A stretch of DNA of 40,015 nucleotides, from positions 1-40,015 of the IMG/VR virus record IMGVR_UViG_3300044617_000607; one strand, given 5' to 3'. The DNA is from a virus. Numbering within the stretch: the stretch's first letter is position 1; each line of letters begins with the position of its first letter. A program made the translations under genes and the position numbers. The notes beneath the pieces are model-generated. The model was given only the letters and a program-made list of their open reading frames with translations. It had not been told where the DNA came from and made no database searches. Of this stretch, positions 4,565-22,996 are shown piece after piece.

Positions 4565-5137
4565 ATGGATACAAAGGTTTGCAGAAAATGTCAAAAGACC
4601 TGCCTTGTCACAGACTTTTATAAAGGTCAGTCACAATGTAAGCCATGTGCCAAAGAGTATTCTAAGGCTTGGCAAAAGGCTAATCCAGAGAAGTATAAAA
4701 AGCAATGGCAAAAGAAAAATAAAGAGCGTTGGGTGCAACAAAAACAAGACCAAGCCTATATGACTAAGAAGGCTATCTATCGTCAAGAAAATAGTGCTAG
4801 GCGTGTAGCAACTGCTAAGGCTTGGAATCAAGCAAACCGTGAAAGATATACCCTTCATGTAGCCAACTCCCATATCAAGCGTAAGATAGCCAAAGATGCC
4901 AAGAGTTATAAGATATTAGATAAAGAATATAAGCGTCTCTATAACTCTCCCTGTGCCTTCTGCGGTGCCACAGAAAAGATTACGATGGACCACATTATTC
5001 CCATATCTAGGTCAGGAAACCATTCAATTGGAAACCTTCAGCCTCTTTGTAGGAAATGTAACTCAAGTAAGAAATCTAGATTAGTCTCAGAGTATAAATA
5101 TTATTTGAGCAAGTTGAAGTCTGCTAACCAAGGGTGA
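4565..5137 (+). CDS. HNH endonuclease
   Basis: A 190-residue protein. An N-terminal zinc finger (CRKC...CKPC, residues 6-28) and a very basic helical middle are followed by the HNH core CAFCGATEKITMDHIIPISRSG...NLQPLCRKCNSSK (about residues 130-172). The core has both zinc Cys pairs and the catalytic DH. This is typical of free-standing phage HNH or homing endonucleases. Its own promoter and solitary position fit a mobile gene. It would cut or nick DNA; the target cannot be read from sequence. Confidence 0.9.
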   Translation: MDTKVCRKCQKTCLVTDFYKGQSQCKPCAKEYSKAWQKANPEKYKKQWQKKNKERWVQQKQDQAYMTKKAIYRQENSARRVATAKAWNQANRERYTLHVANSHIKRKIAKDAKSYKILDKEYKRLYNSPCAFCGATEKITMDHIIPISRSGNHSIGNLQPLCRKCNSSKKSRLVSEYKYYLSKLKSANQG

Positions 5138-5149
5138 GTCGTTAGACTC
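5136..5149 (+). other. Small hairpin at the end of the HNH gene
   Basis: GAGTC-GTTA-GACTC forms a perfect five-base stem overlapping the HNH stop codon. The bases after it (AAGGGAAGG) are not a T-run, so it is at best a weak terminator or an RNA-stabilising hairpin. Confidence 0.35.
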
Positions 5150-5174
5150 AAGGGAAGGTTCTCTACTCTATTTT

Positions 5175-5212
5175 GCGCCGAACTTGACATACCTAGCGCC
5201 GAACTGTATACT
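5175..5212 (+). promoter_or_regulatory. Promoter of the HAD gene with paired operator-like repeats
   Basis: TTGACA (5184-5189), 17 bases, TATACT (5207-5212), then six bases to ATG 5219. The decamer GCGCCGAACT occurs at 5175-5184 and 5196-5205. The repeats are 21 bases apart and lie just before, and within the spacer after, the -35 box. Two sites on one DNA face around a -35 box are what a repressor or activator would need. Confidence 0.65.
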
Positions 5213-5218
5213 TGATAT

Positions 5219-5665
5219 ATGAAACCAACAGCACATATATATGATGTAGACGGTACTCTTGCCAATGTTGATCCGTACCTACATTTTGTTCGTGGGGAGA
5301 AAAAAGATTACGATGCTTTTCATTCTGCCTCTATTGATGCCCTGCCAAATTTTGAAGTACTAGAAATGCTTAATAATTCTGTTAGCGATGGACATTCTAT
5401 TTTAATTGTTACATCTCGCAAAGAAAAGTATCGTGGCCTTACATCTATGTGGCTTGCAAAAAATAACATTAGATCACACGGATTATTCATGAGAGCAGAC
5501 GATGATAACCGACCAGACTATGAAGCGAAGAAAGATATGCTTGATAAGATTACCAAACTCTGGGATGTAACACATGCAGTAGATGATAACCCAAATGTGA
5601 TAAAATTGTGGGAAGACAATAGTATTCCTACAACAAAAATAGGAACTTGGGACGGTGTTAAATGA
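5219..5665 (+). CDS. HAD-superfamily phosphatase
   Basis: A 148-residue protein with the HAD motif I DVDGTLAN (D9, D11), motif II in ILIVTSRKEKYRG (Thr/Ser then Arg, residues 61-73), and a C-terminal acidic motif THAVDDNPN (about residues 121-129). This is the compact layout of phage nucleotidases and the phosphatase half of polynucleotide kinases. It probably removes phosphate from nucleotides or DNA 3' ends; the substrate cannot be told. No kinase domain is attached. It overlaps the next gene by four bases. Confidence 0.85.
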   Translation: MKPTAHIYDVDGTLANVDPYLHFVRGEKKDYDAFHSASIDALPNFEVLEMLNNSVSDGHSILIVTSRKEKYRGLTSMWLAKNNIRSHGLFMRADDDNRPDYEAKKDMLDKITKLWDVTHAVDDNPNVIKLWEDNSIPTTKIGTWDGVK

Positions 5666-8303: not shown

Positions 8304-9032
8304 ATGAAACTTTTTAATAAAAAAAATAAAGATCAGCAAATTGTTTTTCGTGCCCAGGATGAACATGTGTGGCAGGTAAGAGAAAAACCAGTTCCAGCAT
8401 CTAAACTACTGCCAAAGTGGTGGAAAGACATGCCACACTACGGACACCCATTTACAAGTTTAGAGTTAGCACCTATGCCTTCAGTTACAGTAAAAAGATG
8501 TCTTTCTGCTGCTGATGCAATATCCTCTGGATATATTGTTACACTTTGGTCTGACATTCAGGTTAAGTATGATCCAGTTAATGGAACAGAGGTTAAATGG
8601 ATTAGCGATTATCCTGTTTTTGGAATGTGGTCTTCAACCCAAGTATCAGATTATGAATTAACTGAAGGATTTGGTGATACAGTATTTAAATATTTACATG
8701 GGTGGGGAATTAAAACTCCTCCTGGATACTCTTCTTTGTTTATTCATCCAATTGGATATCAAAATCTTCCATTTAGGGCTATTCCTGGAATAGTAGATAC
8801 AGATAAACTTGATACAGACATTAATGTACCAGTAATCTTTAAGAAAGGGTTTGAAGGTATTATTGAAAAGGGAACCCCAATATTTCAAATCATTCCATTC
8901 AAAAGAGATAACTGGGTTTCTAGCCATGAGGTACAAGGTCCAAAAGAGTTTTACCTTAATGCTGAAAAATTAAAAACAAAAATTGTTTCATCTTATGCAA
9001 GATACTTAAGAAGCCCAAAATCATATAAATAA
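8304..9032 (+). CDS. Paralogue family A member 1 (DUF6065-like, unknown function)
   Basis: A 242-residue protein, first of four related proteins here (others at 9132, 16475 and 24161). Shared landmarks are WW/WYK near residue 40, VKRCLSAADAISSGYIVTL (63-81), PPGYSSLF..P.......P..A.PGIVDTD (139-167), and EKGTPIFQIIPFKR (188-201). The last two resemble the strand order of dUTPases ('GvID...G.riaQl'), but catalytic residues cannot be confirmed. Relatives occur in other phages, from memory. Behind AAAAAGGG; it has a leader, unlike the next copy. Confidence 0.65.
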   Translation: MKLFNKKNKDQQIVFRAQDEHVWQVREKPVPASKLLPKWWKDMPHYGHPFTSLELAPMPSVTVKRCLSAADAISSGYIVTLWSDIQVKYDPVNGTEVKWISDYPVFGMWSSTQVSDYELTEGFGDTVFKYLHGWGIKTPPGYSSLFIHPIGYQNLPFRAIPGIVDTDKLDTDINVPVIFKKGFEGIIEKGTPIFQIIPFKRDNWVSSHEVQGPKEFYLNAEKLKTKIVSSYARYLRSPKSYK

Positions 9033-16248: not shown

Positions 16249-16475
16249 TTTATGGCCTCTCTTGTAACCAATACGATTGCGCCTTCCATCTCTAATGCCC
16301 TTTTTAGGTTTAATACATACTGAAGCGCTTGTATCTTATCATCATGAATCATTTTTGCAAACTTATATTCATTTAACTTAATAGTTAAAAAATGATCATT
16401 ATCAATTAACTCTATAGAAAACCCTTTAGGAGGAATAACAGAGTGAAAGGCTCTACGCATTTGATCTGTATACAT
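16245..16475 (-). CDS. Small hypothetical protein
   Basis: A 76-residue protein (YTDQMRRAFHSVIPPKGFSIELIDNDHFLTIKL...) with a beta then helical order. It is coupled to both neighbours (TAATG upstream, GTGA downstream). Not recognised. Its place between the paralogue and the glycosyltransferase is the only clue to its role. Confidence 0.6.
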   Translation of the reverse strand: MYTDQMRRAFHSVIPPKGFSIELIDNDHFLTIKLNEYKFAKMIHDDKIQALQYVLNLKRALEMEGAIVLVTREAIK

Positions 16476-17182
16476 TATTCGTACTTTTTTCTATTCCAAA
16501 AATTATTTTTATATGATCTTTTAATTGTTGATAAAAATTTTTCTGACTCTGTAATATAAAATTTTTTATCATAATTAAAATATTCTCTTTGCCAACCGTC
16601 TCTTTTAATAGGTATAACTTGTACCAATGGCGTTCCTTTTTTAATAATTCCAGTGAATCCCTTTTTAATAAAAAATGGAAAATTAACTGGAATTTTATAC
16701 AGATCTGTATCAACAATTCCAGATATGCACTCAAATGGCAAATCAAACCTATTCAGAGGTTTTGTAAATAATAGTGAATATCCATCTGGAGCATTTATTG
16801 TAAAGGGATTGCTCCATTTATATACAAACGGAAAATACCCATCTGGACATGGCAACCCCCTCCATTGCTCTTCCGTGTGTGCTGTAACAATTGTTCTCGT
16901 CGTTCTCCACTGTATATGTGGAGATCCATCATCAGTTAATAAAACTTCAATGTCTGCAGATAATGCAACTATATATCCAGAGGACATAGCATCTAAAAAT
17001 GGGGTGCATTTTTTATAAGTTGAAGTTATAAAACCTGGAGAGTTAGTCATAAGTTCAGAATCAAACCCTGGCAACTTTGATGGACTAGTTCTATACCATT
17101 CAGGTATAAAGTCTTCTGCTGGGTAAACATTAAAAAGATTATCAGAATTTTCTTCCATTGAAATTATTTTTATTTTTTTCAT
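16475..17182 (-). CDS. Paralogue family A member 3 (unknown function)
   Basis: A 235-residue homologue of the proteins at 8304 and 9132. It has IPEWYRTSPSKLPGF (26-40), KKCTPFLDAMSSGYIVALSADIEV (57-80), LNRFDLPF..ISGIVDTD (143-160) and KKGTPLVQVIPIKRDGW (181-197). Found in a glycosyltransferase operon on the opposite strand to copies 1 and 2. Its conserved core is closer to copy 2 in the 'LNRFDLPF' part. Confidence 0.65.
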   Translation of the reverse strand: MKKIKIISMEENSDNLFNVYPAEDFIPEWYRTSPSKLPGFDSELMTNSPGFITSTYKKCTPFLDAMSSGYIVALSADIEVLLTDDGSPHIQWRTTRTIVTAHTEEQWRGLPCPDGYFPFVYKWSNPFTINAPDGYSLLFTKPLNRFDLPFECISGIVDTDLYKIPVNFPFFIKKGFTGIIKKGTPLVQVIPIKRDGWQREYFNYDKKFYITESEKFLSTIKRSYKNNFWNRKKYE

Positions 17183-22253: not shown

Positions 22254-22282
22254 ATTATAGCCTATTTACTACTTTTTAGCAA
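22254..22282 (-). promoter_or_regulatory. Promoter of the endolysin operon
   Basis: TTGCTA (22282-22277), 17 bases, TATAAT (22259-22254). It lies across the end of the Hsp20 gene and gives about 48 bases of leader, including the palindrome ACCTAGGT, before ATG 22198. Confidence 0.6.
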
Positions 22283-22697
22283 GTTTGATTTCAATAGTCT
22301 TTGGCTTTTTATCTTCAGGAATAATACGATCTACATTAATATTTAACATACCATCCTTCATTTCTGCACCAGTTACTTCCATATATTCTCCAAGAGCAAA
22401 TGATCGTGTAAACTTACGACCAGCAATTCCCTTGTGAACAACTTCAGCATCTGTTACTTCTACAATCTCACCCTTAATAATTAATGTTCCATTGTCTACT
22501 GATACATTAATATTTTCCTTAGAAAATCCAGCAACGGCTATAGAAATTCTGTATGTATCTTCATCTAATTTAAGAAGATCATATGGAGGGTAGGATTGTG
22601 AATTTGTTTTATGTGCTGTGTTCAAACGGCTTAACTCTCTGTTAAAGCCAATAAAAAAAGGATCATTGAATAGATCCATTGCATGTGTTACTACCAT
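22269..22697 (-). CDS. Small heat-shock protein (Hsp20 / IbpA-like)
   Basis: A 142-residue protein with the alpha-crystallin core YPPYDLLKLDEDTYRISIAVAGFSKENINVS (about residues 37-67), the VHKGIAGRKFTRSFALGEYMEV strand region and GMLNINV (about 115-121), ending in IEIKL. This is the IbpA-like layout, in which the chaperone holds unfolding proteins. Phage copies may protect virion assembly. The leader can fold so that the Shine-Dalgarno sequence is paired (see 22699-22721). Confidence 0.92.
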   Translation of the reverse strand: MVVTHAMDLFNDPFFIGFNRELSRLNTAHKTNSQSYPPYDLLKLDEDTYRISIAVAGFSKENINVSVDNGTLIIKGEIVEVTDAEVVHKGIAGRKFTRSFALGEYMEVTGAEMKDGMLNINVDRIIPEDKKPKTIEIKLAKK

Positions 22698-22698
22698 T

Positions 22699-22721
22699 TT
22701 ATTCCCCTTTCAAGCGAATAA
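22699..22721 (-). promoter_or_regulatory. Candidate ROSE-like RNA thermometer before Hsp20
   Basis: In the - strand leader TTATTC (22721-22716) pairs with GAATAA (22704-22699). Inside, G7 opposes G17, C8 pairs with G16, and the Shine-Dalgarno AAGGGG is held in the stem with a small loop. The 5' arm reads UCGCU, which fits the U(U/C)GCU box of ROSE elements with its G-G pair against the Shine-Dalgarno sequence. A second hairpin, GTACTT...AAGTAC (22748-22728), precedes it. Six bases separate GGGG from the ATG. Confidence 0.55.
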
Positions 22722-22754
22722 GTTAATGTACTTCCATTTGGCAAGTACATATAT

Positions 22755-22763
22755 ATTATATCA
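22755..22763 (-). promoter_or_regulatory. Extended -10 promoter of Hsp20
   Basis: TGATATAAT (22763-22755), between the tRNA-Glu gene and Hsp20. The resulting leader, about 50 bases, contains the hairpin and the thermometer-like element. Confidence 0.65.
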
Positions 22764-22771
22764 AACTTTTG

Positions 22772-22843
22772 TAGCCCCACAGGGACTTGAACCCTGTTCA
22801 CCAAGATGAAAGCCTGGTATCCTAACCCATGGACGATGGGGCC
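22772..22843 (-). tRNA. tRNA-Glu (TTC)
   Basis: A 72-base cloverleaf: acceptor GGCCCCA/TGGGGCT, anticodon stem CCAGG/CTTGG with loop CTTTCAT (anticodon TTC), T-arm CAGGG-TTCAAGT-CCCTG. CCA not encoded. Four bases separate it from the next tRNA, so the three tRNAs are probably cut from one transcript. Confidence 0.92.
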
Positions 22844-22847
22844 TTGG

Positions 22848-22918
22848 AGCGAGTGACCAGAATCGAACTGGCACAGCCAACTTGGAAGGATGGTGCACTA
22901 CCATTATGCAACACTCGC
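22848..22918 (-). tRNA. tRNA-Gly (TCC)
   Basis: A 71-base cloverleaf: acceptor GCGAGTG/CACTCGC, D-stem GCA/TGC, anticodon loop CTTCCAA (anticodon TCC), and T-arm GCCAG-TTCGATT-CTGGT. CCA not encoded. TCC reads GGA/GGG, useful in an AT-rich genome. Confidence 0.92.
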
Positions 22919-22923
22919 TTTTG

Positions 22924-22996
22924 CTGGTCTGGCAGGCTACGATCCTGCGACTTCCGAATTAACAGTTCGGCACTCTACCAACTGAGTTACAGACCA
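22924..22996 (-). tRNA. tRNA-Asn (GTT)
   Basis: A 73-base cloverleaf: acceptor TGGTCTG/CAGACCA, D-stem ACTC/GAGT, anticodon stem CCGAA/TTCGG, loop CTGTTAA (GTT), T-arm GCAGG-ATCGTAG-CCTGC. The T-loop starts with A instead of T54, which is unusual, and the discriminator is G. Confidence 0.9.

Follow-up and report, generated by a model that had tools for sequence, protein, structure and literature searches.

A predicted ROSE-like RNA thermometer in the leader of a bacteriophage hsp20 gene

Among the closest described counterparts of the element reported here is the ROSE-like leader of Pseudomonas ibpA (RF02523; PMC3669281), with which it shares a small heat-shock gene preceded by a leader of about 50-60 nt, two hairpins and a free AUG. 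In both cases hairpin II pairs the Shine-Dalgarno sequence (SD) with a U(U/C)GCU box flanked by G-C pairs, and hairpin I, as read from a Pseudomonas ibpA leader (L448, see below), has a CC/GG top and a bulged G that sits above a U-G/pyrimidine pair. The pairing of U(U/C)GCU with the SD, containing an odd G, melts upon heating (PMC3669281, PMC11342760), and the P. aeruginosa element gave approximately six-fold induction between 25 and 42 °C in a reporter assay in E. coli (PMC3669281). The ROSE1 element of Bradyrhizobium japonicum hspA likewise sets U(U/C)GCU against the SD and involves a non-canonically paired G, but comprises three to four hairpins instead of two, as described in PMC3669281. 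Outside proteobacteria, RNA control of small heat-shock genes is represented by the cyanobacterial hsp17 thermometer and the ROSE-like element of Anabaena (PMC4477652, PMC4166951); these, however, belong to cellular genes, and hsp17 has one hairpin instead of two.

Hardly any RNA thermometers have been described in phages. Lambda cIII and the fourU of SPbeta blyA (PMC10586365, PMC4166951) are located, like the element presented here, in phage mRNA leaders, but they employ other motifs and precede other genes, neither is of ROSE type, and cIII acts in the opposite sense. A 2023 paper (PMC10586365) counted only one phage RNA thermometer, lambda cIII, before its own. Small heat-shock proteins of phages, namely cyanophages, are treated in PMC3827213 and PMC5028025, and a search by term of both papers gave no mention of a thermometer. 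Our literature search, of incomplete coverage, found no earlier description of a phage hsp20 preceded by a ROSE element.

The hsp20 locus and the predicted fold of its leader

The analysed DNA (the window) is a stretch of 40,015 nt comprising positions 1 to 40,015 of the IMG/VR virus record IMGVR_UViG_3300044617_000607. The presumed regulated gene, hsp20 (22269..22697, minus strand), encodes a 142-aa small heat-shock protein, an identity given by the sequence-only reading and borne out by a match to PF00011 (E=3.4e-18). Upstream of it we noticed a putative extended -10 promoter, TGATATAAT (22755..22763, minus strand), and TGNTATAAT or close variants occupy the -10 position in most window-type relatives. 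Given this promoter at 22763-22755, transcription probably begins near 22749-22747, which would place hairpin 1 at the 5' end of the mRNA and leave a predicted untranslated leader of about 50 nt (22698..22749, minus strand). The upper bound of the interval delimited earlier, 22763, is the first base of the extended -10 sequence.

The leader sits between the hsp20 ATG and a tRNA gene, mentioned for context only (22772..22843, minus strand; Rfam tRNA, 54.4 bits), and among relatives its upstream neighbour differs freely while the element stays. Three tRNA genes in all are located directly upstream of the hsp20 promoter in the window (22772-22996, minus strand); many relatives have tRNA-like sequence of differing kinds at the same spot and others have none. 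Just upstream of the tRNA cluster lies a gene for a subtilase-family protease (PF00082; 23004-23885, minus strand), and the uncharacterised PHROG family phrog_7084 occurs twice in the window, at 8304-9032 (plus strand) and 16475-17182 (minus strand). The nearest relatives of the terminase (54%) and of the DnaE polymerase (56%) belong to Streptomyces phages, so that an actinobacterial host is likely; the label of actinobacteriophage attached to this DNA earlier is plausible on these grounds.

The predicted fold of the leader (22698-22750, minus strand) consists of exactly two hairpins, as had been proposed. Hairpin 1 (22726..22750, minus strand) has 8 bp with bulged G22742, two C-G pairs forming a CC/GG top, and a loop AAAU that is variable in relatives. 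Hairpin 2 (22699..22721, minus strand; UUAUUCGCUUGAAAGGGGAAUAA), the predicted thermosensing part, has the composition UUAUUC-G-CUUGAAAGG-G-GAAUAA, i.e. 6 bp, a 1x1 G-G mismatch, 3 bp and a loop GAA. The SD, AAGGGG (22704..22709, minus strand, 6 nt before the ATG), lies wholly inside this hairpin opposite UUCGCUU, while the AUG is free; the anti-SD strand UCGCUU (22712..22717, minus strand) contains the U(U/C)GCU box of ROSE-like elements (PMC3669281, PMC11342760). The mismatched G22715 and G22705 have C-G pairs on either side, and the fold thus agrees with the sequence-only reading, which had placed AAGGGG opposite UCGCU with a G-G mismatch flanked by C-G pairs. In relatives the SD is AAGGAG or AAGGAGG.

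Compared with dinucleotide shuffles, of which none in 200 was as stable, the 57-nt leader had a z-score of -4.0 and hairpin 2 one of -5.1. The 23-mer of hairpin 2 occurs once in the window, the expected number being 0 even at 3 mismatches. Of the 75 mechanical ORF starts in the window, that of hsp20 has the most stable -28..+3 region among those with an SD-like motif, although 8% of the 31-nt windows in this DNA are equally stable. Stability alone is not rare here, and the case for the element rests on conservation.

Conservation in close and distant phages

A search of IMG/VR with the window Hsp20 protein, unselected for the leader, provided 80 close relatives. Hairpin 2 was identical in every full leader inspected among them with one exception (L057), in which GAAAGGGG is changed to GAAGGAGG, so that the SD is nearer the textbook form and the G-G mismatch becomes a bulged G in the fold. 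In the same set of leaders the sequence of hairpin 1 was altered on both arms. Scanning with the 23-nt hairpin returned at least 120 stretches, and combining the pattern scan with the protein-search loci gave a pool of at least 201 loci carrying the 23-mer. Among the matches listed, an ATG follows 1-3 nt downstream in 201/201 and an Hsp20 match is found at 196, with full-length identity down to 38%; the remaining five are contig-end fragments, three of which start MVK/MVT..LFND like the others, while two, showing only MVK or MVT, are too short to tell. The 23-mer is, among the matches listed, linked exclusively to hsp20, and hairpin 2 is near-invariant in relatives with Hsp20 identity as low as 38-40%.

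Bacterial genomes (257 Gb) scanned with a 17-mer gave matches in approximately the number expected by chance, the full element being present only in L313, a contig of a Chitinophagaceae MAG (CANGYR010000020.1, about 5056-5512) in which the 23-nt hairpin is unchanged and the neighbouring Hsp20 shares 97% identity with a viral protein; on account of this identity L313 is probably a phage contig mis-binned into the bacterial MAG.

Two further searches employed divergent Hsp20 proteins and were again unselected for the leader. The folded leaders obtained included hairpin 2 in several compensated forms, namely UUAUUUG..GAGAAAUAA, with C-G replaced by U-A, UUAUUCG..GGAGGAAUAA with a bulged G, CUCGCUUAAAAGGAG, which is the usual ROSE core, and GACGCUCAAAGAGGUC. 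Loss of the pairing in homologous phage leaders had been named beforehand as the outcome that would speak against the element; instead, the pairing is kept, with compensation, at Hsp20 identities of 30-50%, and hairpin 1 covaries strongly. The same leader precedes hsp20 in the cyanophages Syn1, S-PM2, S-SM1, S-RIM2, S-SSM4, S-CRM01, S-CREM1, P-RSM4, P-RSM6 and ACG-2014f, in the Pelagibacter phages HTVC115P, HTVC103P and HTVC008M, in Methylophilales phage Melnitz-3, phage C48C1 and Pseudomonas phage Paride, and in two Rhizobiaceae jumbo phages (Sinorhizobium phage Phosso and Agrobacterium phage Atu_ph07). In the leaders examined from Vibrio phages PWH3a-P1 and IBT_VpB-34 and cyanophage S-TIM5 no recognisable element was found before hsp20. 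In the leaders of L407 and L413 (about 1379-1444) an additional GCCG hairpin of unrelated appearance separates hairpin 1 from the ROSE-type one; they may represent a three-hairpin form of the phage hsp20 leader. Regarding the expectation that such an element would be new in an actinobacteriophage, the host is plausible, but the element is not peculiar to it and constitutes a widespread phage hsp20 leader.

Covariation was counted on 86 aligned phage leaders, in an alignment fitted to the structure. All seven modelled pairs of hairpin 1 changed on both sides (one of them being G-C in 32 leaders, C-G in 24, A-U in 22 and U-A in 6), as did three of the six pairs of hairpin 2. The covariation score was 0.548, compared with 0.212 after shuffling (0/500) and at most 0.117 with the partners slid. 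Because this alignment had been fitted to the structure, a second count was made on plain minimum-energy folds, in which a single 5'-side bulge appeared in 104 of 147 distinct hairpin 1 sequences and was always G, with many pair types in the stem. In the aligned phage leaders the bulged G of hairpin 1 is present in 83/83 of those with a letter at that position, and the G of the anti-SD strand in 84/84, where it is bulged if the SD is AGGAG. In the window's clade hairpin 2 is too uniform to yield covariation of its own, owing to the constraint that the SD puts on the sequence.

Relation to ROSE elements

Ten cyanophage or marine leaders, none of them of window type, served to build a covariance model (R1). 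Run over the 40 kb of the window, it matched the hsp20 leader and nothing else (23.7 bits, E=1.5e-4), and 86/92 phage leaders were matched at E<=0.3, each at the start of hsp20. R1 also recovered the experimentally proven ROSE of P. aeruginosa ibpA (18.8 bits). In 745 kb of bacterial DNA, most of it unrelated, no chance match exceeded 12.5 bits, while the phage-like L313 included there scored 20.7. In the R1 alignment window-type hairpin 2 receives a loop of two bases, which is sterically impossible, and its pairing therefore rests on the thermodynamic fold. A further model, R2, was run against 297 Actinomycetota and 200 Pseudomonadota genomes and gave four weak matches, none near an Hsp20 gene; this is no proof that cellular ROSE elements are missing there, since no Pseudomonadota hsp20 leader was matched either, though ROSE is known in that group.

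The comparison with the Rfam ROSE families, proposed along with the original reading, did not detect the window leader: there was no Rfam ROSE match even at E=10, and the gathering cut-off of ROSE_3 (RF02523; 43 bits, with P. aeruginosa ibpA as positive control at 69.2) was not reached. Several phage leaders gave ROSE_3 matches below this cut-off, each exactly at the hsp20 leader: Melnitz-3 (34.1 bits), L418 (34.1), Atu_ph07 (28.0), C48C1 (26.8), L411 (25.0), P-RSM6 (23.7) and Syn1 (21.6). As R1 finds the P. aeruginosa ROSE and ROSE_3 scores several phage leaders, the phage leaders grade into ROSE_3, with the window at the far end of the series. The sequence taken as P. aeruginosa ibpA is that of L448 (GenBank OQ572409.1, 'UNVERIFIED: Pseudomonas phage Y7'), identified as such by its ROSE_3 score and by a hairpin I CCGC matching the element in PMC3669281. 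At 316-382 this entry has a ROSE_3 match of 69 bits together with an ibpA-like gene, and it looks like Pseudomonas chromosome deposited as phage.

When the whole window and the leader were compared with Rfam, only tRNAs were above threshold. We attribute a weak match to preQ1-II (18.5 of 47 bits, E=1) to chance, since the A/U-rich ends and the AAAGG..AUG tail account for it. The leader is not of the fourU kind, as its anti-SD strand is UUCGCUU and it contains no UUUU.

By the motif definition of PMC3669281 and PMC11342760, a ROSE-like element pairs the U(U/C)GCU box with the SD. The leader has this box (UCGCU, 22717-22713) imperfectly paired with the SD in the 3'-proximal hairpin, a non-canonical G in the anti-SD strand (G22715 facing G22705), a small heat-shock gene downstream, and two hairpins, within the range of two to four, the 5' one being stable. 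Against the ROSE reading, AAGGGG with a G-G mismatch departs from the usual core of AGGAG with a bulged G. The Pseudomonas ibpA element has that usual core, whereas the window element has an A/U-rich base of six pairs below its mismatch, belongs to a phage with a probably actinobacterial host, and is preceded by an extended -10 instead of a sigma-32 promoter. The earlier reading is supported: the pairing is conserved in homologous phage leaders, hairpin 1 covaries, and R1 links the window with Pseudomonas ROSE. As the Rfam ROSE model does not detect it, the leader is ROSE-like and no catalogued ROSE; we place it as a divergent branch within a ROSE-type family carried by phages, with a presumed response to heat.

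Predicted thermal behaviour and alternative explanations

For hairpin 2 the energy model gave -9.4, -8.4, -6.1 and -5.1 kcal/mol at 20, 25, 37 and 42 °C, respectively, and for P. aeruginosa ROSE hairpin II -10.8 at 25 °C and -7.7 at 37 °C; the window hairpin is somewhat weaker than the latter and stronger than most marine phage versions. Natural leader variants served as the comparison set, and energies of the hairpin only were used, the mean unpaired probability of the SD being uninformative because loop and mismatch bases are counted as open. The fully open fraction of hairpin 2 is tiny at 20-37 °C (2e-5 at 37 °C), and that of P. aeruginosa ROSE lower still. The energies ignore non-canonical pairs and the ribosome, so that they place the hairpin in the working range only and give no switching temperature.

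According to the proposed mechanism, the hsp20 mRNA would begin with a short ROSE-type thermometer of two hairpins. The stable hairpin 1 at the 5' end would probably shield the mRNA and insulate the folding, while the weaker hairpin 2 would pair the SD with UUCGCUU except at one guanine, either unpaired or in a G-G pair. This would keep the SD hidden at ordinary temperature, with Hsp20 poorly translated; heat, or another condition melting hairpin 2, would free the SD, and the Hsp20 made could then protect phage or host proteins. In ROSE elements that have been tested, deleting the unpaired G greatly lowers induction. We infer the transcription start, the translational repression and its relief by heat, and regard it as quite probable that the leader works as a ROSE-type thermometer by melting of hairpin 2.

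The foremost competing explanation, which we find unlikely, is a genuine translational-control hairpin that answers to a non-thermal signal, such as an RNA-binding protein of phage or host, ribosome availability or the stage of infection, with Hsp20 made late or at a set level. In some T4-like relatives hsp20 follows regA, the gene of a translational repressor, but the window gene adjoining hsp20 was not recognised as regA. Several marine leaders contain a TATAAATA box resembling T4 late promoters, the invariant bulged G of hairpin 1 is of a kind common in protein-binding hairpins, and window-type hairpin 2 shows unusually little sequence change; on the other hand, the core is the ROSE U(U/C)GCU/SD motif, heat-responsive in the examples tested (PMC3669281, PMC11342760), and hsp20 is the classical ROSE target. 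That the hairpins merely stabilise the mRNA or tune constant expression, without SD switching, seems very improbable: hairpin 1 does occupy the predicted 5' end, a position known to be stabilising (discussed for Pseudomonas ROSE in PMC3669281), yet this would leave unexplained why widely differing phages keep the SD strictly paired with a constant anti-SD strand in which a conserved G is mismatched or bulged.

The conservation could, in principle, concern DNA instead of RNA, TTATTC-N11-GAATAA being an inverted repeat to which a repressor might bind, as at the CIRCE and HAIR operators of heat-shock genes. The repeat, perfect over 6 bp, follows closely on the promoter and shows no change within the window's clade. 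We nevertheless give this reading hardly any credence, since in L359, L363 and the cyanophages the palindrome is gone but the UCGCU/SD pairing is kept, the N11 spacer, which holds the SD and the loop, is conserved to the same degree as the arms, and hairpin 1 covaries as RNA, G-U pairs included. CIRCE and HAIR operators have the form TTAGCACTC-N9-GAGTGCTAA or CTTGAGT-N7-ACTCAAG, and the leader, read through by eye, contains neither sequence.

The ROSE-like leader of the window apparently belongs to a widespread phage hsp20 family that is ROSE-like in its working parts and outside the Rfam model. The element precedes hsp20 in many unrelated water and soil phages, which thus appear to have a temperature switch of their own for the chaperone. 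A broader proposition, for which we see an even chance, is that ROSE-type thermometers form a large phage-borne family travelling with hsp20 across host phyla (Cyanobacteria, Proteobacteria and probably Actinomycetota), in which the window branch would be a retuned variant with a G-G mismatch and the covarying hairpin 1 with its invariant bulged G a second functional module not recognised before. The many natural leader variants constitute a rich data set on the tuning of ROSE hairpins. If the reading is true, phages of abundant lake and ocean bacteria would import a heat-gated chaperone, tying warming events to the outcome of infection.
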